The notes under the pieces are model-generated. The model worked only from the letters and a program-made list of their open reading frames with translations, was not told the origin of the DNA and made no database searches. The translations under genes were made by a program, and so were the position numbers. Below are positions 39,005 through 50,670 of a stretch of DNA of 64,000 bases, piece after piece; position 1 is the first letter of the stretch, and each line of letters opens with the position of its first letter. The stretch covers positions 124,001 through 188,000 of the forward strand of contig NZ_SJXD01000022.1 of assembly GCF_004336745.1 (NCBI RefSeq), read 5' to 3'. Source of the stretch: Roseococcus sp. SYP-B2431. GTDB lineage: Bacteria > Pseudomonadota > Alphaproteobacteria > Acetobacterales > Acetobacteraceae.

Positions 39005-40540
39005 CTACCGCCCGACGCCCTGCAGCGCGTCCCACATCTGCTGCGCCGTGGTCATGACGCGGGCATTCGCCGCATAGGCGTTCTGCAGCTTGATGAGCGC
39101 CGCCACCTCGGCGTCCGGGTCGACGCCGGACTCGTTCTGGAAGCGCGCGTCCAACCCGGCCTTCAGCCCCTCCGCGCGCGCCCTGGCCGCGGTCGCCGCG
39201 GCGCGGTCGGCGGTCTGCGCGCCGGTGAGCGTCGCGGCATAGGCCTCGACCGAGCGCGCGGGGATGAAGGGCGAGCTGAGGCTGCCGTCGGGGCCCAGCC
39301 CGCCGGACGGGATCGGGGCCCAGCTGGTGCCGTCGCGCACCGCCTCGCCCAGGCTATGATCGATGATGCGGTCGAGCAGCGTGGCGAAGCCGGAGGGCCC
39401 GCCGGCAGGGTTGGTCGTGAAGCCGGTGGGCCCGCCCGGCGTGTCCACGACGTCGTGCGTGCCATCGCGCAGCAGGGCGGGGTTGGTGGCGACGGCGGCG
39501 CTGATCCGGATCTGGTTGGCGAAGCCGATCTGCCCACCAGTCGGATCGGAATAGCCCAGCGAGACATCCGGCACCGTTCCGGAGCTGCCGGTGAAGAGCG
39601 TGAGGCCCTGTGCATTGAAACGGCTCGCGAGCTGGGACGCCGCGACGTCCAGCTCGGCCTGGTAGCGCGGCAGGGTCGAATCCCGCAGGTTGATGTACTC
39701 GCCGAGGCGCCCGCCCACGAGCTGCCGTGTGACGTCCACGCCGCCCAGGGTGATGCCGGGGATCGTGCCGCCGGCGCCATGGAAGGAGCTGGGGCCGATC
39801 GTGGCCATCTCCGACGAGAGCGCGTCCCCGCGGGGGTCCAGCGCCAGGCCGAGGCCGCCCCTGGTCACCAGCACGAGGCCGCCATCGGACTGGTGCAGCG
39901 CCTGGACCGGCAGGCTTTCCGACAGCCGGGACAGCGCCATGTCGCGCTGGTCCTCGAGGTCGCCCGTGGGCAGGCCCCGCACGGTGTCGCCCTTGATGAG
40001 GGTGGTGAGGTCGGCGATCTGGCGCAGGCCCGCATTGATCCTCTGCACCTCCTCCAGGATGCCGTCCTGCGCCTGCTGCCGCGCATCGCCCACCGCCTCC
40101 GCGACCTCGTTGAAGCGGGTCGCGACCGTCATCGCGGCCTGGGCGGCGTCGCGCTGCAGGCCCGTGTCGCCGGGCGAGCCGCGCAGCCCCGTGAGGCTGC
40201 TGCGCAGCGCCGCGATGGTGTCTCCCAGGCTGTCGCCGGCATCGGTGGCGCCGTGCACCGCCTCGATGCCGGCGAGCAGGCGCTCCCGCACGGTGGCGGC
40301 GGCCGCCTCGGCGCCGCGGGAGTCGCGCTCGGCGGTCAGGGCGGCGTCCACATGGCGCTGCGCCTCGCCGAGCCGGACGCCGAGCGGCATGCCATTGGTG
40401 GTGAGCGCGATCGCCGTCGCGGACTTGCGCGTGTAGCCCGGCGTCTCGGCATTGGTGATGTTCTGCGCGACATTGGCCAGCGCCCGCTGGGTGGCGAGCA
40501 GACCATTGCGCGCGATGCCGAAGGCGAGGTCGAGACTCAT
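39005..40540 (-). CDS. flgK: Flagellar hook-associated protein 1 (FlgK)
   Basis: This 511-residue FlgK has the rod/hook N-terminal motif LLATQRALANVAQNITNAETPGYTRK and the C-terminal coiled coil VDPDAEVAALIKLQNAYAANARVMTTAQQMWDAL-type segment. It forms the first hook-filament junction ring. It follows flgE by 45 bases and precedes flgL, probably on one transcript from the sigma-54-like site upstream of flgE. Confidence 0.94.
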   Translation of the reverse strand: MSLDLAFGIARNGLLATQRALANVAQNITNAETPGYTRKSATAIALTTNGMPLGVRLGEAQRHVDAALTAERDSRGAEAAAATVRERLLAGIEAVHGATDAGDSLGDTIAALRSSLTGLRGSPGDTGLQRDAAQAAMTVATRFNEVAEAVGDARQQAQDGILEEVQRINAGLRQIADLTTLIKGDTVRGLPTGDLEDQRDMALSRLSESLPVQALHQSDGGLVLVTRGGLGLALDPRGDALSSEMATIGPSSFHGAGGTIPGITLGGVDVTRQLVGGRLGEYINLRDSTLPRYQAELDVAASQLASRFNAQGLTLFTGSSGTVPDVSLGYSDPTGGQIGFANQIRISAAVATNPALLRDGTHDVVDTPGGPTGFTTNPAGGPSGFATLLDRIIDHSLGEAVRDGTSWAPIPSGGLGPDGSLSSPFIPARSVEAYAATLTGAQTADRAAATAARARAEGLKAGLDARFQNESGVDPDAEVAALIKLQNAYAANARVMTTAQQMWDALQGVGR

Positions 40541-40585
40541 GGCCGGGCCACCTTATCGAGACGAGGGTTAACGAGAGGTTGCTCG

Positions 40586-41887
40586 TCACCGCTTCATATT
40601 GATCGTGTCCTGCAGCATCTCGTCCGAGGTGGTGACGACGCGCGTATTCGCCGTATAGGCGCGCTGGGCGACGATGAGCTTGGTGAACTCCGTGCCGATA
40701 TCGACGTTGGATCCCTCCTCCGCGCCCACCACCAGCTTGCCGACGCCGTTGGTCGCGGCATCCATCACCTGGGCCTCGCCGCTCTCGATGGTGCGCATGA
40801 AGGCCTGGCCGTCGAGCCGCTGGAGCTTGTCCGGATCGCTGAAGGAGACCAGCGGCACGCGCGCGATCACGCGGGACTCGCCGTTGTCGTAGTTCACCGC
40901 GACGTCGCCGTTCTCGCGGATCGCGAGGCCGGAATAGGAGCCCGGCGGCACGCCGTTCTGGTGCAGCGTGCGCAGCGAGAAGTCATTGCCGGCCTGCTGC
41001 GTGATCCCCTGCGCGACGTCGAACCGGCCGAGGTTCAGGTTGATGTCCTGGTTGCCCAGGCCGAAATCCATCTGGAAGTTCAGGTCCACCACGGCGTTGG
41101 TCGTGCCGGTCACGCCGTCGAAGCTCTCGATGGTGCCATTGGTGCCGAAGACGATCGGGATGCTCACCGCGCCGCCCACCGGGCTGGGCGAGATGCTCAT
41201 CTGCCAGCTCCGCGCCGGGCCCGCCGTGGGCGGCGGCCCGGCGGTGCCCGGGGTCTGCGCGAAGGTCAGGGTGAGCGCATGGCGGTTGCCGAGCTGGTCG
41301 TAGACCGGCACCTGCGTGCTGAAGCTCCTCGCATCGGCCGGCGTCGCCGGCGGGTCGATCGCCGGCAGGTTGGCCGCGATCTCGACGGCGGAGGTGGCGA
41401 TGGGGTTGAAGACCTGCTGGCTCACGCGGAGCGGCGCGAGCGTGGTCCGGTCGACATTGCCGTTGGAATCCACCGGCCAGCCCTGGAGGAAGTAGTCCGA
41501 GCCGTTCACCAGATAGCCGTCCCGATCCATCCGGAAATCGCCGGCGCGGGTGTAGAACTGCCGCTCGTCGAAGGCGGGCAGCCCGTTGGAGCTGCCGCGC
41601 GCCTGCGCGACGGAGAAGAAGCCCTGGCCGCCGATGGCCAGCGAGAGCGGGTTGTCGCTCTGCTCGATCGTGCCCTGGATGGAGTTGGTGTAGTCCGGCC
41701 GCGCCATCACCGAGCCGGGGGCGTGCATGGTCTGGGTGGATTGCGTGACGAGATTGGTGAAGTTGGTGTCGACGCGCTTGTAGCCGGCGCTCTGGCTGTT
41801 CGCGAGGTTGTCGGAGATGTGGCCGAGGGAGCGGGATTGGGCGTTGAGGCCCGAGATCGCCGTGGTCATCGCACCAAACAGGGACAT
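40586..41887 (-). CDS. flgE: Flagellar hook protein FlgE
   Basis: This 433-residue hook subunit has the N-terminal SLFGAMTTAISGLNAQSRSL and HISDNLANSQSAGYKRVDT, the mid-domain FYTRAGDFRMDRDGYLVNG, and the C-terminal NVDIGTEFTKLIVAQRAYTA. It polymerises into the hook after export. The ATG at 41885-41887 has GAGG upstream. It is first in the leftward flagellar operon. A strong sigma-54-type promoter match lies about 57 bases upstream of the start codon. Confidence 0.95.
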   Translation of the reverse strand: MSLFGAMTTAISGLNAQSRSLGHISDNLANSQSAGYKRVDTNFTNLVTQSTQTMHAPGSVMARPDYTNSIQGTIEQSDNPLSLAIGGQGFFSVAQARGSSNGLPAFDERQFYTRAGDFRMDRDGYLVNGSDYFLQGWPVDSNGNVDRTTLAPLRVSQQVFNPIATSAVEIAANLPAIDPPATPADARSFSTQVPVYDQLGNRHALTLTFAQTPGTAGPPPTAGPARSWQMSISPSPVGGAVSIPIVFGTNGTIESFDGVTGTTNAVVDLNFQMDFGLGNQDINLNLGRFDVAQGITQQAGNDFSLRTLHQNGVPPGSYSGLAIRENGDVAVNYDNGESRVIARVPLVSFSDPDKLQRLDGQAFMRTIESGEAQVMDAATNGVGKLVVGAEEGSNVDIGTEFTKLIVAQRAYTANTRVVTTSDEMLQDTINMKR

Positions 41888-41943
41888 GGGGGCCTCGCGC
41901 CAGGGATCGCGTGCCCGGGGCATTCCGGGCCGCGGCGGGGCAA

Positions 41944-41960
41944 GGCATGCGGCGTGCCAA
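41944..41960 (-). promoter_or_regulatory. Sigma-54 (-24/-12) promoter candidate for flgE-flgK-flgL-flbT
   Basis: Minus strand, 41960 to 41944, reads TTGGCACGCCGCATGCC. It matches the sigma-54 consensus TGGCACG-N4-TTGC exactly in the -24 block and in three of four bases at -12, with GG and GC ten bases apart. Transcription would start near 41933, giving a 46-base leader to flgE. The encoded FlbD is the expected activator. The plus-strand reading of the same palindrome is a weaker -24/-12 match. Confidence 0.7.
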
Positions 41961-41989
41961 GGTCGGGGCCGGGATTCGCCCGACCCGGG

Positions 41990-42004
41990 CGGCAGGGTTT
42001 GCCG
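41990..42004. promoter_or_regulatory. Inverted repeat, candidate FlbD (activator) binding site
   Basis: CGGCA (41990-41994) and TGCCG (42000-42004) form a perfect inverted repeat with a 5-base spacer, GGGTT. It lies between the two divergent sigma-54-like sites, 29 bases upstream of one and directly beside the other. A near copy occurs before fliF at 44196-44210. Operator function is inference. Confidence 0.45.
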
Positions 42005-42006
42005 GT

Positions 42007-42023
42007 TGGGGGCGGCGATTGCC
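42007..42023 (+). promoter_or_regulatory. Sigma-54 (-24/-12) promoter candidate for fliK operon
   Basis: The plus strand reads TGGGGGCGGCGATTGCC. GG (42009-42010) and GC (42021-42022) are exactly ten bases apart, and the -12 block TTGC is perfect. The -24 block matches GG and the following CG but lacks the CA. Transcription would begin near 42034, leaving about 112 bases before the fliK ATG. It is a weaker match than the flgE site. Confidence 0.45.
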
Positions 42024-42145
42024 GGATCTCCGCCCCGCCTTGCCGGGCCGGGCGGGCCATGGGCTGGCCCGGGCCTTGCGGAGGGCGGGGGCCGGGCATG
42101 GAGCCAGGCACCGGAGCGGGCCGGAGGCGCCGCGAGGGATCCGCG

Positions 42146-43459
42146 ATGGATGCCGCCTTTCCCCTGGCCACGCCGATGTCCGCCGCGCTTCCGGCCACAG
42201 GCTCGGCCGCGGCAGAGCCCGACGGCGAGGCCGGCTTCGCGGCGGCGCTGACGCGGAGCTTGAGCGCGACCGCGGAGGCAGTTCCGGCTACGGCTGCTCC
42301 GGCCGTGCCCGTGGTTGCGACGAGCGGTTCCTTTGTGCCCGCTTCCGTTCTGCCCGCGTCCGTCCCGGCCAGCCTTTCCCTGGCGCCGACGCCAGGAACG
42401 GCAGCAGCCGCCCCGGCCGCGACGGCCTCGCCGATCCCCGGACCCGCGCCAGCGCCGGTGGAGATGCCGGTGCCGGCCCTGCCAGAGGCGCCCCTGCCAG
42501 AGGCCATCGGGCCGGAACCCCCGATCATCCGTGCTCAACTCGCCGCGGAGGAGCCTATCGCAAAGGAGGAACGCGGCGCGGATCGGCCGATCGACTTCCA
42601 GGCGCTGCCCGCACTCCTCCTGCCGGCGATCCCGGCGCTGGCCCAGCCGTCGCGACCGCAGCCCACCGCCAAAGCCGCCGCCGCCCCCCTCTTGGAAGAA
42701 GGCGGGGACGAGGCGGGCCCGCCCGTCCCGGGTCCGGCGCCGCTGCCCATCCTGCCGCCCATGCCGCTCCCTTCGAATTCGCCGGAGATCGCGTCGGGCG
42801 GCGCCTCGAAGGCTGCCGCGCCGGAGGCCGAGGTCGCGGCCACGGCGCCCCTGCCTGATGCACCGGCGCCGTCCGGGCCCGCGCGCGCCGAGTTCCCCTC
42901 CGGGACCGCGGAACGTCCTGCATGGTCCCCGGCCGGCCCGGTGCAGACCGGCATGCCGGCTTTCGCGCCCGAGCTGGCGGCGCTCCAGGCCGCGCCCCGC
43001 GCCGCCGTCCTCGACAGCCCGGCGCCCAGCGCCTCGCCGTCGCCGTCTCCTGCCCGCCAGGTCTCCTCCGTCGCGATCGCGCTGGCCTTCGCCCCAGGTG
43101 GATCCGGCGGCTTCAGCCTATCGCTCGAGCCGGCCGAGCTGGGCCGCATAGAAATCCGCGTGCAGCGCGAGGGCGACGGCCACAACGTCCGCGTGACGGC
43201 GGAGCGGCCGGAGACGCTGGCCCTGCTCCAGCGCGACCGGCACGAGCTCGATCGCGGCCTCGCGGAGGCCGGGCTGCGCGTGGATCCGGCCGGAATCGAC
43301 TTCTCGCTCGACATGCGGGACGGCGGCGGCGGCCAGGAGGCCGGGACGGGCCAGCGCAACGAGCCGCGGGGCCATGCCGGCGCCGCGCGCGCCCTCACCA
43401 TGCCCGAGCGCGAGGCGCCGCCGCGCGTGCCGCGCAGCCTGCTCGACCTCAACATCTGA
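42146..43459 (+). CDS. fliK: Flagellar hook-length control protein FliK
   Basis: This 437-residue protein has a long Pro/Ala-rich, low-complexity N-terminal two thirds. The conserved FliK C-terminal domain (about residues 310-390) includes FSLSLEPAELGRIEIRVQREG, VRVTAERPETLALLQRDRHE and LDRGLAEAGLRVDPAGIDFS. FliK is the secreted molecular ruler that switches export from hook to filament. The ATG at 42146 follows GAGGGA; the frame is open far upstream but is low-quality there. It is first in the rightward operon, with flgD 18 bases downstream. Confidence 0.88.
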   Translation: MDAAFPLATPMSAALPATGSAAAEPDGEAGFAAALTRSLSATAEAVPATAAPAVPVVATSGSFVPASVLPASVPASLSLAPTPGTAAAAPAATASPIPGPAPAPVEMPVPALPEAPLPEAIGPEPPIIRAQLAAEEPIAKEERGADRPIDFQALPALLLPAIPALAQPSRPQPTAKAAAAPLLEEGGDEAGPPVPGPAPLPILPPMPLPSNSPEIASGGASKAAAPEAEVAATAPLPDAPAPSGPARAEFPSGTAERPAWSPAGPVQTGMPAFAPELAALQAAPRAAVLDSPAPSASPSPSPARQVSSVAIALAFAPGGSGGFSLSLEPAELGRIEIRVQREGDGHNVRVTAERPETLALLQRDRHELDRGLAEAGLRVDPAGIDFSLDMRDGGGGQEAGTGQRNEPRGHAGAARALTMPEREAPPRVPRSLLDLNI

Positions 43460-43477
43460 CGGAAAGGAACGCCCTCC

Positions 43478-44149
43478 ATGAGCGGCACGGTCCAAGGCAC
43501 GAACGGGACGGGCAGCTCCGCCGCCCCGCGCAGCACCAGCCCCACCACCGGCTTCGGCGCCGACTTCAACACCTTTCTCACGCTGCTAACGACGCAGCTG
43601 AGGAACCAGGATCCGACCAATGCCATGGATCCGAACGAGATGACGCAGCAGCTCGTGCAATTCGCCGGGGTGGAGCAGCAGCTGCGGACGAACACGAATC
43701 TCGAATCGCTGATCTCGGTGCAGCAGGGCACGCAGCTTGTCGGCGCGGCGCCGCTCATGGGGCGGCTGGTCGAAGTGGAGAGCGACCGCCTCGCGCTGCA
43801 GGGCGGCCAGGCCACCCTGCGGCTGCCCGCCGCCGGCGAGGCGCGCCGCGTCGGCATCGGCGTGCTGGATCCGCAGGGCAACCTGATCCGCTCGGCGCAG
43901 GTGGATCTTGGTGGCGCGACCCAGGACTGGGTCTGGGACGGCAAGGACGTGGAGGGCGTGCAGCGGCCGGACGGGGCCTACAGCTACGTGCTGGTGGGCG
44001 CCGCCTCGGATGGCACCGAGGTGGAAGTGACCGGCACCGTGCTGGCCCGCGCGACCGGCGTGGAGCGGCGCGAGGGCGAGGTGCGGCTGAACCTAGGCGC
44101 ACTGACGGTGGCGTTCGACAGGTTGCGCGGCCTGCCGGGCGGGAACTGA
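43478..44149 (+). CDS. flgD: Flagellar hook assembly scaffold FlgD
   Basis: This 223-residue hook cap protein has the N-terminal export and capping region FNTFLTLLTTQLRNQDPTNAMDPNEMTQQLVQFAGVEQQL. This is the FlgD hallmark. A FlgD Ig-like C-terminal domain follows (GVQRPDGAYSYVLVG). AAAGGAA precedes the ATG at 43478. It lies between fliK and fliF; the 125-base gap to fliF may hold a separate regulatory element. Confidence 0.95.
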   Translation: MSGTVQGTNGTGSSAAPRSTSPTTGFGADFNTFLTLLTTQLRNQDPTNAMDPNEMTQQLVQFAGVEQQLRTNTNLESLISVQQGTQLVGAAPLMGRLVEVESDRLALQGGQATLRLPAAGEARRVGIGVLDPQGNLIRSAQVDLGGATQDWVWDGKDVEGVQRPDGAYSYVLVGAASDGTEVEVTGTVLARATGVERREGEVRLNLGALTVAFDRLRGLPGGN

Positions 44150-44195
44150 GGGCCTGAATCGCCGCTTCCGTTAATCCTTCCGCAAGAGGTCCGGC

Positions 44196-44210
44196 GGCAA
44201 GTTCTGCCCA
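44196..44210. promoter_or_regulatory. Inverted repeat upstream of fliF, second candidate FlbD site
   Basis: CGGCA (44196-44200), spacer AGTTC and TGCCC (44206-44210) repeat the architecture of the site at 41990-42004, with one mismatch in the outer base. It lies 65 bases upstream of the fliF start. In Caulobacter the fliF operon promoter is bound by FlbD, so a control role is plausible but unproven. Confidence 0.4.
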
Positions 44211-44274
44211 GGGCGCAGGAGGCGCTCCGGGAGAGTTCCATGTTGCCTTGCCATGCGCCACGTCCGGGCGGGCC

Positions 44275-45921
44275 GTGCAGAAGCTGATCGAGCAGCTCCG
44301 CGGCCTCGGGCGCGTGCAGCTCGGCGCGCTGGCGGGCGTGGGCATCGGCGTTCTGGGGCTGATCGCCTGGCTCGTGCTGCGCGCCGGAACGCCGCCCATG
44401 GGCCTGCTCTACGGCGAGCTGGAGGCGCGTGACGCGGGCGCCGTGGTGGCCTCGCTGGACCGGCAGCGCGTGACCTACCGCCTGGCCGCGAATGGCACGC
44501 AGGTGCTCGTGCCGGCCGAGGACGTGCCGCGCCTGCGGCTTTCCCTGGCGCGCGAGGGGCTTCCGGCGGGCGGCTCCATCGGCAACGAGATCTTCGACCG
44601 CGGTGCGAGCCTCACCACCACGCCCTTCCAGCAGGAGATGAACCGCCTCCGCGCGCTGGAGGGCGAGCTGGCGCGCAGCATCCGCGCCTTGCAGGGCGTG
44701 CGGGCCGCGCGCGTGCATCTCGTGCTGCCGCGCCGCGAGGCCTTTTCCCGCGAGCGCGCCGAGGCGCAGGCCAGCGTGCTGCTCACCATGCAGGGCGTCC
44801 AGCGACTGGACCGCGAGGGCGTGCAGGCGGTGCTGCACCTCGTGGTGACGGCGGTGTCCGGGCTGCGGCCGCAGAACGTCTCGATCGTGGACAGCCGCGG
44901 CGAGCTGCTGGCGCGCGGCGGCCAGCCGCTCACGGGGCCGGCGGGTGCGCAGACGCAGGACGAGCTGCGGCGCGGCCAGGAGGCGCGGCTGGCGCGCGGC
45001 GTGGAGGAGATGCTGGAGCGCGTGCTCGGCCCCGGCCGCGTCCGGGCCGAGGTGGCGATGGAGATGGATTTCGACCGGGTGGAGACGCGCGAGGAGCGCT
45101 TCGACCCGGACAACCAGGTGGCGCGCAGCATCCAGTCCACCACCGAGAACAACCGCACGCAGGAGAATGGCCTGGTCAGCGTCGGCAACAACCTGCCGGG
45201 CGCCGAGCCCCCGGGCGGCGGCAATGGCAACACCGAGAGCAAGCAGGAGGAGACGACCAACTACGAGATCGGCCGCTCCACCCGCAACGTGCTGCGCGAG
45301 CATCCGGTGGTGCGCCGCCTGACCGTCGCGGTGCTGGTGGACGGCGTCACGGAATCGCAGCCGGAGGGCCCGCCCACGCATCGCGAGCGGACGCCGGAGG
45401 AGCTGGCGCGCATTTCCGCGCTCGTCCGCAACGCCGTCGGCTTCAATGAGCAGCGCGGCGACCGGGTGGAGGTGGTCTCCATGCGCTTCGCCGAAGCCGA
45501 GGCGACGACGCGCGAGACCGGGCCGCTGGGCCTCGACATCTCCCAGGCCACGCTGGCGCGGCTGATGGAGACGGCGGTGATCGGGCTGCTGATCCTGCTC
45601 ACGCTGCTGCTGGTGGCCCGGCCGGTCGCGCGGAAGCTGGCGATCTCGATGAATCCCATGCCTGCCCTGGCGGGGACGGGCGGCGGCACCGTCGCGCTCG
45701 ACGCGAGCGGCCTGCCGGTCGCGATCTCCGGCGACGCGCCGGTCATGCTGCCGCCCGGCGTCGAGCCCGGTTCGGAGGAGGAGCGGATGATCCATCTCGC
45801 CCATGTGCAGGGCCAGATGCGCGCCTCGTCGATCGCGCGGATCACCGCGCTGGTGGAGGAGAATCCCGAACAGGCGCTCCTGGTCATCCGCCGCTGGCTC
45901 ACGCCGGAGGATGGGGAATGA
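44275..45921 (+). CDS. fliF: Flagellar MS-ring protein FliF
   Basis: This 548-residue MS-ring subunit has two membrane helices (about residues 15-37 and 428-450). Between them is the periplasmic YscJ-like region ([58 protein letters not shown]). The C-terminus contains [19 protein letters not shown], which contacts FliG. The GTG at 44275 was chosen because homology begins there; a TTG at 44248 is possible. A short out-of-frame ATG frame at 44240-44287 with a good ribosome-binding site overlaps the start. The stop overlaps fliG (ATGA). Confidence 0.92.
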
Positions 45922-46922
45922 GCGTCACGCGATCCCTGCGCGGACCGCAAAAGGCGGCGGTGCTCATGCTGGCGCTCGGGGAGGAGCATGCGACCCGGCT
46001 CTTCGCGCGCATGCATGAGGACGAGATCCGCGATCTCTCCCACGCGATGTCGCAGCTCGGCACCATTCCCGCGCTGACTGTCGAGCAGATCTGCGACGAG
46101 TTCGCGACCCATCTCGGCAAGGCGGGCCATCTCGTCGGCTCGTTCGAGAGCACCGAGCGGCTGCTGCTCAAGACGCTGCCGCGCGAGCGCGTGGCCCAGA
46201 TCATGGAGGAGATCCGCGGGCCCGCGGGCCGCACCATGTGGGACAAGCTCGGCAATGTGAACGAGACGGTGCTCGCGAACTACCTAAAGAACGAGTACCC
46301 GCAGACCGTCGCGGTGGTGCTCACCAAGGTGAAGCCCGACCACGCCGCGCGCGTGCTCTCCATCCTGCCGGACGGCTTCGCGATGGAGGTGGTGATGCGC
46401 ATGCTCCGCATGGAGAACGTGCAGAAGGAGGCGCTGGAAGGCGTCGAGCGCACGCTGAAGATGGAGTTCATGTCGAACCTCGCGCGCTCCACGCGCCGCG
46501 ATGCGCACGAAATGATGGCCGAGATCTTCAACGGGCTCGACCGCCAGGCCGAGGGCCGCATCATGGCCGCGCTGGAAGAACGCAACCTGGAGGCGGCCGA
46601 GCGCATCCGCGCCCTCATGTTCACCTTCGACGACCTCCGCCGCCTCGACGCGCAGGGGCTGCAGGTGCTGCTACGCGCCGTCGAGAAGGACAAGCTGACG
46701 CTGGCGCTGAAGGGCGCGGCCGAAGAGATGCGCGAGCTCTTCTTCCGCAACATGACCGAGCGCGCGGCCAAGCTGCTGCGCGACGACATCGCCGCGCTCG
46801 GGCCGGTGCGGCTCAAGGATGTGGACGAGGCGCAGGCGGCGGTCGTCGTCGCCGCGAAGGACCTCGCCTCGCAGGGGCAGATTCAGCTCTCGGAGGGCAA
46901 GGATGACCAGCTTGTGGAGTAG
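45918..46922 (+). CDS. fliG: Flagellar motor switch protein FliG
   Basis: This 334-residue FliG has the N-terminal FliF-binding domain ([24 protein letters not shown]), the middle domain with [30 protein letters not shown]-type ARM repeat, and the C-terminal torque-generating domain ([41 protein letters not shown]). It sits on the MS ring and switches rotation direction. It is translationally coupled to fliF through ATGA. Confidence 0.96.
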
Positions 46923-46925
46923 GCG

Positions 46926-47246
46926 ATGAGCGAGAGCCTGGATTTCGAGCCGACGCCGCCCGGCGCGACGCCCCCCGTGGAGCGCGCGCCGGTGCAGCGG
47001 GATCTGGAGGCGGTCTACGACATCCCCGTCCAGGTCAGCGCCGTGCTGGGGCGCGCGACGATGCAGGTGAGCCAGCTCCTCAAGCTCGGCCGCGGCGCGG
47101 TGGTGGAGCTGGACCGCAAGCTAGGCGAGGCGGTGGACATCTACGTCAACAACCGCCTCGTCGCGCGCGGCGAGGTGGTGATGGTGGAGGACAATCGCCT
47201 CGGCATCACCATGACGGAGATCGTCAAGGCGGATCGCGGCATATGA
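46926..47246 (+). CDS. fliN: Flagellar motor switch protein FliN
   Basis: This 106-residue C-ring protein has a single SpoA domain (YDIPVQVSAVLGRATMQVSQLLKLGRGAVVEL, YVNNRLVARGEVVMVEDNRLGITMTEI). It is of normal length for FliN. It forms the base of the C-ring with FliM, whose gene is not in the window. It lies 3 bases after fliG, and its stop overlaps flbD (ATGA). Confidence 0.95.
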   Translation: MSESLDFEPTPPGATPPVERAPVQRDLEAVYDIPVQVSAVLGRATMQVSQLLKLGRGAVVELDRKLGEAVDIYVNNRLVARGEVVMVEDNRLGITMTEIVKADRGI

Positions 47247-48613
47247 CCCGGCTGCTCCTCATCGGCTCGCTCTCCGGCGAATTGGGGCAGGCGGCGCGGA
47301 TCGCCAATGCGCGCGGCGCGGCGCTGGCGCAGGCGGATGGCGTGGCCTCGGGCCTCGCGCATCTGCGCGGCGAAGGCGCCGACCTCGTGCTGGCCGATGT
47401 CATCCACGATCTGCCCTGGCTGCTGGAGCGCCTCGCCGAGGAGCGCATCGCGACCCCGATCGTCGCCTGCGGCCTGGATGCGGATGCCGAGGCCGTGCTG
47501 CGCGCCATCCGCGCCGGCGCGCGCGAGTTTCTGCCCCTGCCGCCGGACGCCGAGCTGATCGCGGCGATGCTGGAGGCCGTGACCGCGAAGGACGGCGCGC
47601 CGGTCTGCCGCGATCCGGGGATGCGCGCGCTGCTGGCCCGGGCCGAGCAGCTCGCCCGCTCCGAGGCCTCGGTGCTCATCAGCGGCGAGAGCGGGACGGG
47701 CAAGGAGGTGCTGGCGCGCCACATCCACGGCGCCTCGCGCCGGTCGCGCGGCCCCTTCGTCGCGCTGAACTGCGCGGCCCTGCCGGAGAACCTGCTGGAG
47801 AGCGAGCTCTTCGGCCACGAGAAGGGTGCCTTCAGCGGCGCCGTCGCCGCGCGGAAGGGCAAGTTCGAGCAGGCCGAGCGCGGCACGCTGCTGCTCGACG
47901 AGATCGGCGAGATGGACCCGCGACTCCAGGCCAAGCTGTTGCGCGCCATCCAGGAGCGCGAGGTGGACCGGCTCGGCGGCACGCATGCGGTGAAGGTGGA
48001 TGTCCGCATCCTCGCCGCGACCAACCGCGACCTGCCGGCCGAGGTGCGGGCCGGACGCTTCCGCGAGGACCTCTATTTCCGGCTGAACGTGGTGCAGCTC
48101 CGCATCCCGCCGCTGCGCGAGCGGGTGGAGGACATCCTGCCGCTGGCCACGCATTTCGCCACCCGCTACTCGGCCGCCAACGGCCTGCCGGACAGGGCCA
48201 TCGCTCCGCCGGCGCTGGCCCGGCTGATGGCACATTCCTGGCCCGGCAACGTTCGCGAGCTGGAGAACGCCATGCACCGCGCGGTCCTGCTCGCCTCCGG
48301 CCGCGAGATCGGCGCCGAGGCGATCGAGGTCGCCGCGATGCCCGATGCACCCGCCGTGGAGACCGTCGCTCCCGCCCTCCCCGTTCCGGCGCAGCCCGCC
48401 ATCGCCGCCCTGGTGGGCCGCCGCATGGAGGAGGTGGAGCGCGAGCTCATCCTCGAGACGCTCGGGCGTTGCCTCGGCAACCGCACGCGGGCCGCCGAGA
48501 TCCTCGGCATCTCCATCCGCACCTTGCGCAACAAGCTCTCCGAATACCGTGGCCAGGGCCTCGCCGTGCCGCCGGCACCCGGCCAGATGCCCGAAGCCTG
48601 GAAAGTGGCGTGA
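47243..48613 (+). CDS. flbD: Sigma-54-dependent flagellar regulator FlbD
   Basis: This 456-residue activator closely resembles Caulobacter FlbD. It has an N-terminal atypical receiver ([33 protein letters not shown]-type region, about 1-115) and an AAA+ domain with Walker A GESGTGKE (148-155) and Walker B GTLLLDE (214-220). A Fis-type HTH lies at the C-terminus ([20 protein letters not shown]). The sigma-54 contact loop reads GAFSGA (195-200) instead of GAFTGA. It would activate late flagellar operons and possibly repress fliF. Its stop overlaps flhA (GTGA). Confidence 0.93.
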
Positions 48614-50670
48614 AGGCCATCGCGCTCCCTCCCTGGCTGGCCGGGCTTCGCGTCTCTTCCGAGGCCGCGCTGGTCCTGGGCATCGTGCTGGTCCTCGTCA
48701 TCCTGATCGTGCCTCTGCCGGGCCCGCTGCTCGACGCGGCCTCGGCGCTGAACATCACCGTCTCGGTGCTGATGCTCATGGTGACGCTGCTGCTGGCCCG
48801 GCCGCTCGACTTCCAGTCCTTCCCGCAGCTGCTGCTCATCACCACGCTGTTCCGCCTCGGCCTGAACGTCGGCACCACGCGCGCCATCCTGGCGAGCGGG
48901 CACGAGGGGCCGGAGGCGGCGGGCGCGGTCATCGCCACCTTCGGCCGTTACCTGATGGGCGGCGACATCCTGGTCGGCCTGATTGTCTTCGCCATCCTGC
49001 TGCTGGTGAACCACGTCGTGGTCTCCAAGGGCGCGGGGCGCGTCGCCGAGGTCGCGGCGCGCTTCCACCTCGACGCCATGCCGGGCAAGCAGATGGCCAT
49101 CGACGCCGACCTCAATGCCGGCACCATCGACGAGAACCAGGCGCGCGAACGCCGCCGCGAACTCCAGGAGGAGAGCGGCTTCCACGGCGCCATGGACGGC
49201 GCCGCGAAATTCGTGAAGGGCGACGCGATCGCGGGGCTGGTCTCCACCTTCATCAACCTGCTGGGCGGTCTCGCGATCGGCGTGGGCCGGCATGGCATGG
49301 GTTTCATGGACGCCGTCGAGACCTATTCCATCCTGACCGTCGGCGACGGGCTGGTGGGGCAGATCCCCGCGCTGCTCGTCTCGGTCGCGGCCGCGATCAT
49401 CGTCACCAAGGCGGCGCGCGAGGAGCAGGCCGACCAGCTCATGGCGCGCGAGCTCGCCGGGTGGAAGCCGCTGGCCATCGCCTCGGCCGCCTCGCTGTTC
49501 CTGGGGCTGATGCCGGGCATGCCGCTGGTTCCCTTCGTTGTCGCCGCGGGCGCGACGGGCGCGGCCGCCTGGTTCCAGCGCAAGGCCTCGCTGGTCCCGC
49601 CGCCCGAGCCCGACACGCCGCCCCCCGTGCCGACCGAGCCCGCCGTTTCCGAGGCGCTGCGCATGGACCTGCTGCGGCTGGAGCTGGGCTACGGCCTGCT
49701 CTCGCTCGCCTCGGGCGACGCGCCGCGGCTCACCGAGCAGATCCGCGGCCTGCGCCGGAGCATCGCGCAGGAGATGGGCTTCGTGCTGCCCTCCGTGCGC
49801 ATCCAGGACAATCTGGACCTGCCGCCCGACACCTACATCCTGCGCGTGAAGGAGATCGAGGCCGCGCGGGGCGTCTTGCGCCCGCCGCTGCATCTCGCAA
49901 TCAACCCCGAGGGTGGCACGCCCGACATGCCCGGCGAGAAGACCAGCGAGCCCGCCTTCGGCCTGCCCGCCCTCTGGATAGAGGAGAAGCTGCGCGACGA
50001 GGCGCTGATGCGCGGCTGCACGGTGGTGGACTGCGCCGGTGTGCTGGCCACCCATCTCACCGAGGTGGTGCGGGAGAACATGAGCGAGCTGCTCTCCTAT
50101 GCCGAAACGCAGAAGCTGCTGGACGAGCTGCCGAAGGAGCAGCAGAAGCTCGTCTCGGACCTCATCCCGACGCAGGTGAGCGTGGGCGTGTTGCAGCGGC
50201 TGCTCCAGGCGCTCCTGGCCGAGCGCGTCTCCATCCGCGACCTGCCGACCATCCTAGAGGGCTTGCAGGAGGCGGCGACGGCCAATCTCCGCGCGATCCC
50301 CCAGATGCTCGGCATCGTGCGCATGCGGCTGGCGCGGCAGCTCTCCGAATCCGCGCGCGGGCCGCAGGGCTACGTGCCCCTGGTCACGCTCTCGCCGGAA
50401 TGGGAGGTGGCCTTCGCCGAATGCCTCAGCGGCCCCCTTGAGGACCGGCAGCTCGTCATGGATCCCGGCCGCCTCCAGGCCTTCATGCAGCGCCTGCGCG
50501 ACGTGCTCGACGCCCAGGCCGCGCAGGGCGAGCATGCCATCCTGCTCTGCTCGGGCGCGCTGCGGCCGCATCTGCGCGCCATCGTCGAGCGCTTCCGGCC
50601 GAGCACCTCCGTGCTCTCGCAATCCGAGATCCACCCGCGCGCGCGGATCCGCACGCTGGGCAGCGTCTAA
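48610..50670 (+). CDS. flhA: Flagellar export gate protein FlhA
   Basis: This 686-residue FlhA has eight N-terminal membrane helices, the FHIPEP-family signature (LLLITTLFRLGLNVGTTRAIL, ARFHLDAMPGKQMAIDADLNAG), and a large cytoplasmic domain (VREDMSELL-like VRENMSELLSYAETQKLLDEL, LSQSEIHP). It forms the nonameric gate of the flagellar type III export system and uses proton motive force. It starts at GTG 48610, overlapping the flbD stop. Confidence 0.96.
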   Translation: MKAIALPPWLAGLRVSSEAALVLGIVLVLVILIVPLPGPLLDAASALNITVSVLMLMVTLLLARPLDFQSFPQLLLITTLFRLGLNVGTTRAILASGHEGPEAAGAVIATFGRYLMGGDILVGLIVFAILLLVNHVVVSKGAGRVAEVAARFHLDAMPGKQMAIDADLNAGTIDENQARERRRELQEESGFHGAMDGAAKFVKGDAIAGLVSTFINLLGGLAIGVGRHGMGFMDAVETYSILTVGDGLVGQIPALLVSVAAAIIVTKAAREEQADQLMARELAGWKPLAIASAASLFLGLMPGMPLVPFVVAAGATGAAAWFQRKASLVPPPEPDTPPPVPTEPAVSEALRMDLLRLELGYGLLSLASGDAPRLTEQIRGLRRSIAQEMGFVLPSVRIQDNLDLPPDTYILRVKEIEAARGVLRPPLHLAINPEGGTPDMPGEKTSEPAFGLPALWIEEKLRDEALMRGCTVVDCAGVLATHLTEVVRENMSELLSYAETQKLLDELPKEQQKLVSDLIPTQVSVGVLQRLLQALLAERVSIRDLPTILEGLQEAATANLRAIPQMLGIVRMRLARQLSESARGPQGYVPLVTLSPEWEVAFAECLSGPLEDRQLVMDPGRLQAFMQRLRDVLDAQAAQGEHAILLCSGALRPHLRAIVERFRPSTSVLSQSEIHPRARIRTLGSV

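Follow-up and report, generated by a model that had tools for sequence, protein, structure and literature searches.

The DNA analysed here (the window) is a stretch of 64,000 nucleotides of Roseococcus sp. SYP-B2431 (RefSeq assembly GCF_004336745.1, contig NZ_SJXD01000022.1, positions 124,001 to 188,000), and positions are counted from its first letter. The element under study is the 258-base gap (41888-42145) that separates the hook protein gene flgE (ATG at 41887, minus strand) from a fliK-like gene (ATG at 42146, plus strand); its length and bounds agree with those of the original prediction, an earlier reading of the same sequence. The gap has a G+C content of 80.6% and contains two opposed sigma-54 promoter elements with copies of a palindrome between them, from which we propose that it acts as a flagellar switch controlled by the activator FlbD.

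On the leftward side, flgE and flgK are followed by a flgL- or flagellin-like gene and then by a flbT-like gene, both scoring under the cut-offs of their models. On the rightward side, the fliK-like gene, for which no NCBIfam match was found, precedes flgD, fliF, fliG, fliN and flbD (Table 1), as expected from the claim that FlbD is encoded in the rightward operon. The order fliF-fliG-fliN ahead of flbD is also found in other alphaproteobacterial families. Between 41800 and 44500, no sigma-70-like promoter was detected using an E. coli-type consensus, and the search for terminator-like sites gave none on the plus strand and two weak matches, both on the minus strand. The Rfam scan of 40500-48700 returned nothing at gathering scores.

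Table 1. Genes and candidate control sites around the flgE/fliK gap, in window coordinates.
Feature	Position	Strand	Evidence
flgK, leftward gene 2	39005..40540	-	TIGR02492, E 1.2e-62, above cut-off
flgE, hook protein, leftward operon gene 1	40586..41887	-	NCBIfam NF004242, E 6.8e-112, above cut-off
flgE sigma-54 element, TGGCACG CCGC ATGC	41945..41959	-	10/11 (7/7 at -24, 3/4 at -12); GG-to-GC spacing correct
ftr-like palindrome, slot nearest flgE, CGGCAGGGTTTGCCG, exact	41990..42004		exact palindrome in 4/3000 gap shuffles
ftr-like palindrome, middle slot, 2 mismatches	42010..42024		40 bp to fliK element; relatives have a 40-bp slot
ftr-like palindrome, slot adjoining fliK promoter, 2 mismatches	42031..42045		19 bp to fliK element; relatives have a 19-bp slot
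fliK sigma-54 element, TGGCCCG GGCC TTGC	42065..42079	+	10/11, spacing correct
fliK-like gene, rightward operon gene 1	42146..43459	+	named by position; C-terminal part matches relatives (tblastn)
flgD	43478..44149	+	best FlgD-type NCBIfam models E 1.6e-33 and 1.3e-31, both under cut-offs
CtrA-like box upstream of fliF, TTAA-N7-GCAA	44171..44185	+	TTAA 8-40 bp before ftr-like site in 44/56 regions
ftr-like palindrome upstream of fliF, 1 mismatch	44195..44209		at most 1 mismatch in 47/56 regions
fliF (start codon uncertain)	44248..45921	+	PF01514, PF08345
fliG	45918..46922	+	PF01706, PF14842, PF14841
fliN	46926..47246	+	PF01052
flbD, sigma-54 activator	47243..48613	+	PF00158; NF050807 E 5.7e-194, 645 bits (cut-off 750)

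Two opposed sigma-54 elements

Candidate sigma-54 sites were scored over 11 positions (seven at -24, four at -12) and compared with 3000 dinucleotide shuffles of the gap, in which composition is kept. A 10/11 site occurred in 3/3000 shuffles on the minus strand, in 3/3000 on the plus strand and in 0/3000 on both, and two of the three 10/11 sites of the whole window belong to the gap. The near-perfect minus-strand element previously proposed for flgE (7/7 and 3/4) was upheld at 41959-41945 and is conserved. Transcription is predicted to start at about 41933 for flgE and about 42091 for fliK, with leaders of about 46 and 55 nt.

The plus-strand promoter had been placed at 42007-42023, where the best reading is 8/11 (42008-42022), a score equalled in 880/3000 shuffles. 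This candidate was rejected as a promoter: a site of at least 8/11 is present there in 4 of the 56 regions with a promoter pair described below, the window being one of the four. The candidate overlaps the middle palindrome slot. The strong and conserved plus-strand element at 42065-42079, 57 bp further right, had been overlooked. The flgE element had also been described as readable in the opposite direction, which is true in the window at 8/11; a two-way function was rejected, the overlapping plus reading of at least 8/11 being found in 12/56 regions (window included).

An overlapping two-way element of the type suspected at flgE was observed elsewhere in the genome, at L112:1511-1527 (C1:156910-156926), where two sigma-54-like sites on opposite strands overlap (TGGCACGCGCCGTGC / TGGCACGGCGCGTGC): one points to a P-II gene at a distance of 91 nt, the other to a 396-aa gene at 174 nt.

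Conservation was assessed in regions upstream of flgE, obtained from a search of 60 genomes (that of the window included), in which 47 had a match of any kind and 30 loci were retrieved, and from loci flanking flbD (best 80 of 483). The 111 loci gave 67 flgE upstream regions, divergence being assumed in 18 of them, where the locus did not show the partner gene. Removal of 4 duplicates left 63 regions, one of them the window's own, and 57 were retained once those of another layout (L031, L104, L107-L109) and the too short L017 had been set aside. The closest named relative among the matches listed was Roseococcus pinisoli (Acetobacterales, Roseomonadaceae according to NCBI), with a FlbD 86% identical; entries very close to the window itself may be absent from that listing.

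In the first 330 nt of these regions, window included, a minus-strand site of at least 9/11 was found in 57/57 (2.9 expected from shuffles) and a plus-strand site of at least 9/11 in 55/57 (4.3 expected); at the 10/11 threshold, the counts were 50/57 (0.28 expected) and 43/57 (0.43 expected). The spacer sequence varies widely among regions and the sigma-54 elements are kept. In the two most frequent spacing classes (40 regions), the TT preceding GC is conserved at 97-100%, GG and GC being themselves required by the scan.

Perfect 11/11 sites are rare on the plus strand (2/57 vs 17/57 on the minus strand), and the fliK element often reads TGGCCCG, one base from the -24 consensus, which would fit a FlbD/sigma-54 promoter on the flgE side alone, the fliK element being weak or unused and fliK-flgD-fliF-flbD being driven otherwise (e.g. 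by an internal fliF promoter or an unseen fliK promoter). We consider this improbable in view of the near-universal plus-strand site and its conserved TT, of the palindrome slots that lie in register with the plus element (see below), and of the negative scan for sigma-70-like promoters.

Palindromes between the promoters

The stretches between the promoters were compared in the 56 regions that have a promoter pair when the plus site is allowed down to 8/11 (L017 and L027 gave none). In a de novo count of 5+5 palindromes with gaps of 0-9, CGGCA-N5-TGCCG ranked first; it is exact in 44/56 stretches, vs 18 for the runner-up and a maximum of 5 over 50 shuffles, and is present with at most one mismatch in 56/56 promoter pairs (0.84 expected). 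This palindrome is most likely the FlbD (ftr) site and is called ftr-like here.

The commonest distances from palindrome to palindrome are 21, 20, 41 and 42 bp, and the commonest promoter spacing is 94-96 bp (27/56 pairs). In this class, the distances of most palindromes to the flgE element are 19-20, 40 and 61-62 bp and those to the fliK element 60-61, 40-41 and 19-20 bp, which is nearly a mirror image. Most regions have one or two palindromes with at most one mismatch, all three being present in five (L022, L042, L053, L054, L073). From the 95-bp to the 105-107-bp class, about one helical turn is gained on the flgE side, and the slots on the fliK side remain near 60/40/19. The window is a member of the 105-bp class, with about one extra turn on the flgE side (from slot 41990-42004 it is 30 bp to the flgE element and 60 bp to the fliK element) and with 0, 2 and 2 mismatches in the slots at 60/40/19 on the fliK side.

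Palindrome-to-promoter distances (65 and 70 for the two sides, from 33 sequence clusters) were periodic near 10.5 bp, with R values of 0.66 and 0.76 at 10.5 and best periods of 10.8 and 10.5; 0/5000 jittered sets were as high on either side. The promoter-to-promoter spacing was discarded as a phasing measure, because it gave a best period of 11.7 bp (R 0.79, vs 0.46 at 10.5) and because, in L005, L012 and L018, the scan had picked a non-canonical plus site. The phasing claim is therefore based on the palindrome-to-promoter distances.

Given the G+C content of the gap and the fact that the relatives are not independent (56 pairs in 33 clusters), the whole pattern could be thought to result from common descent and very high G+C, without selection on the sites. 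We hold this to be very improbable: the shuffles keep composition, the elements stay where the spacers diverge widely, and the 105-107-bp class gains about one turn on the flgE side with the fliK-side slots held at 60/40/19.

Association of the palindrome with sigma-54 sites was also examined outside the gap. Among window sites of at least 9/11, only the two gap promoters have a palindrome with at most one mismatch within 110 bp upstream. Genome-wide, the loose pattern TGGCNYG-N5-TGC was mildly enriched (288 vs 206 in the control) and the strict TGGCAYG-N4-TTGC clearly so (9 vs 1). Nine other sigma-54 sites of the genome were read: those of flgI and flgF are preceded, 19-70 bp before the -24 element, by palindromes with at most one mismatch, and in the remaining seven, among them those of a P-II gene and of a SIS/CBS-domain gene, the 200 nt upstream contain none; at C12:198947, one of the seven, a palindrome lies downstream. 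A tenth site, C29:10729, has no palindrome within 150 nt upstream.

The flgI site (L114:2730-2744, L132) has two palindromes with one mismatch upstream, and the match to FliX starts about 140 bp from it on the opposite strand, forming a second divergent flagellar region. Another consensus site (L113:5217-5231) lies 36 nt before the SIS/CBS-domain gene, about 5 kb from rpoN. The consensus sites L129:1555-1569 and L188:1530-1544 precede a PEP-CTERM gene (PF07589) and a gene whose 231-aa product begins with a secretion-signal-like stretch; exported proteins may be under sigma-54 control.

The site upstream of fliF and the regulators

A second ftr-like palindrome, preceded by a CtrA-like box, lies between flgD and fliF. 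It was studied in 56 unique Acetobacterales-like regions, window included (L103-L109 were left out). A palindrome with at most one mismatch was found upstream of fliF in 47/56 (1.4 expected) and TTAA in 50/56 (11 expected); the two were combined, TTAA standing 8-40 bp before the palindrome, in 44/56 (0.02 expected, maximum of 1 in 200 shuffles), at a distance of 23-24 bp in 32 of the 44. The box consensus, TTAACC-N5-G(C/T)AA, is close to the Caulobacter CtrA site TTAA-N7-TTAA (excerpt of PMC6180460).

The rightward operon is headed by a conserved plus promoter and contains flbD, so that FlbD is in a position to act back on the operon that encodes it, as had been suggested. This feedback is likely to be two-sided, with activation from upstream and repression from within, because of the second ftr-like site upstream of fliF: in Caulobacter, FlbD represses fliF via ftr4 (excerpt of PMC3930126), and in the absence of fliX a fliF reporter goes up and a fliK reporter goes down (excerpt of PMC3096577). 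By analogy with Caulobacter fliF, the CtrA-like box and the ftr-like site would form an internal fliF promoter repressed by FlbD. Through upstream activation and internal repression, FlbD would shift the transcription of flbD from the CtrA promoter to its own upstream promoter.

Sigma-54 promoters need RpoN and an ATP-hydrolysing activator. RpoN is encoded in the same genome, as are FliX (C1:1312883, PF10768, E 1.1e-18; of the 14 control genomes, Caulobacter alone matched) and a CtrA-like regulator (NF045991, 342.7 bits for a cut-off of 350).

Proposed switch and its relation to known systems

Taken together, the gap is probably a class III (hook-stage) switch of a Caulobacter-type hierarchy, in which two opposed sigma-54 promoters are both activated by FlbD bound between them. 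The leftward promoter (41945-41959) would serve flgE-flgK and the rightward one (42065-42079) fliK-flgD. The three slots, spaced by two helical turns, would be bound by FlbD, which, when FliX allows it, would activate RNA polymerase-sigma54 at both promoters from the one array. Transcription from the fliK promoter may run on into fliF-fliG-fliN-flbD, in keeping with a plus strand free of terminator-like sites over 41800-44500. The idea that one region times both hook operons thus holds as far as the opposed conserved promoters, RpoN, FliX and the palindromes between them are concerned; the plus promoter assigned to it was not the right one.

Several observations weigh against this interpretation. 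Two of the three slots of the window carry two mismatches, and the palindrome is assigned to FlbD from the places in which it occurs, which are those expected of an ftr element. Distances inside one array are not independent of each other, and the 33 clusters used in the periodicity test are still related. L027 has no plus-strand site in range. NF050807 is the best model for FlbD by about 270 bits (645 vs 376), yet the score is under the cut-off of 750. The sigma-54 contact loop of this FlbD is GAFSGA instead of GAFTGA; GAFSGA is found in 72/80 FlbD loci (L032-L111, best 80 of 483), GAFTGA in 7/80 (L042, L076, L104, L105, L107-L109), and the loop was not found in L103, while the 20 top FlbD loci of a separate 385-genome search have GAFTGA (17) or GSFTGA (3). 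At the genome scale, neither TGGCACG-N5-TGC (15 vs 32 in the reversed control) nor the exact palindrome (34 vs 60) is enriched, and paired promoter-palindrome patterns are modestly above control (19 vs 12 and 9 vs 3); of the paired-pattern matches, C12:525318 and C30:30145, the two whose surroundings were viewed besides flgE, fliK, flgF and flgI, have no promoter-palindrome pair.

Lack of genome-wide enrichment, together with the indirect assignment of the palindrome to FlbD, leaves a small chance that the palindromes bind another regulator, such as a repressor of both hook operons. Such a regulator fits poorly with the distribution of the palindrome, which lies upstream of the sigma-54 sites of flgI and flgF but not of the 8 non-flagellar or unassigned ones (one has a downstream copy), or with its recurrence upstream of fliF, a gene repressed by FlbD in Caulobacter (excerpt of PMC3930126). 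The near-whole-turn spacing from both -24 elements would also suit an activator of both promoters.

The FlbD/sigma-54 switch resembles flaN/flbG (fliK) of Caulobacter crescentus in its divergent sigma-54 hook promoters, in the presence of a probable FlbD and of FliX, and in the position of flbD in a fliF-fliG-fliN operon. In Caulobacter, as here, fliK-flgD lead one side and flgK is on the other. Here, however, flgE is on the flgK side and adjoins the promoter, and the ftr-like sites form a compact array between the promoters. Going by the title of Mullin and Newton 1993, ftr2 and ftr3 are reportedly downstream elements; unlike this flaN-side arrangement, the window has no palindrome with at most one mismatch on the downstream side of the flgE promoter as far as 37316. 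The Caulobacter fliF promoter (CtrA + ftr4) has a likely counterpart in the CtrA-like box followed by an ftr-like palindrome, with the difference that fliF here stands directly behind fliK-flgD, so that the FlbD-activated promoter could also read into fliF. A further difference concerns the flagellins, which are RpoN-dependent in Caulobacter (excerpt of PMC3930126), whereas, up to 300 nt from the first ATG, the two flagellin genes of this genome have neither a palindrome with at most one mismatch nor a sigma-54 site scoring more than 8/11. These two genes, L193 (C1:772811) and L194 (C28:174962), are on contigs other than that of the window.

Divergent flagellar promoters are also described for the alphaproteobacterium Rhodobacter sphaeroides in its fla2 system; according to an excerpt of PMC6180460, that system is controlled by CtrA, none of the RpoN proteins of the species takes part in its expression (given there as unpublished), and the species compared lack FlbD. 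In the open-licence literature, nothing was found on FlbD in Acetobacteraceae or on sigma-54 flagellar control in Roseomonas, which does not imply absence from print.

For comparison beyond the Acetobacterales-like set, 20 stretches upstream of flbD, all above the FlbD cut-off, were taken from 385 genomes (106 above the cut-off). A fliK-like gene precedes fliF on the same strand in 15/20, with flgE on that strand too in 7/20; flgK was recognised in 3/20, on the opposite strand. A palindrome with at most one mismatch lies upstream of fliF in 7/20 (one stretch begins almost at fliF), and a 10/11 sigma-54 site is present in 9/20. Six of these were inspected further, and in four the distance between opposed elements of at least 9/11 is 171-231 bp (in L176 there is another, nearer, at 105). 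L175 and L176 have palindromes with at most one mismatch between the opposed elements, L175 and L179 have them downstream of the minus promoter, and L183 has none. With opposed elements in four outside regions, the divergent promoter pair looks old; the compact phased array was seen, among the regions examined, in the Acetobacterales-like set.

A more speculative reading, which we advance tentatively and think rather unlikely, concerns the use of the array itself. The three slots may be a loading platform for a single FlbD hexamer (three dimers), equidistant from both promoters; one bound hexamer would engage one promoter at a time, and the flgE-flgK and fliK-to-flbD operons would fire alternately. 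The analogy is with NorR at E. coli norVW, where three enhancer sites upstream of a sigma-54 promoter are needed as a scaffold for oligomer assembly (excerpt of PMC2941729). In that excerpt the sites are described for the norVW promoter, whereas the array considered here, to which FlbD binding is presumed, lies between two sigma-54 promoters. If the platform is real, the two outputs would be coupled by geometry and not by separate sites, and the circuit would be self-sustaining, with flbD on one side, and self-limiting through the internal ftr site at fliF.

Judged from the sequence, the kind of switch is ordinary, that is, Caulobacter-type FlbD/sigma-54 control of the hook genes, and its conserved, compact and near-symmetric architecture appears unusual. 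Compact, natural and conserved in many relatives, the gap would allow a test of how a single sigma-54 activator array could serve two promoters; because the distances are near whole helical turns on both sides, insertions of 5 and 10 bp predict opposite outcomes. The finding also suggests a wiring of the textbook Caulobacter flagellar checkpoint for Acetobacterales, in which flgE has changed sides with respect to the divergent promoters and flbD stands behind one promoter that its product should activate and one that it should repress.

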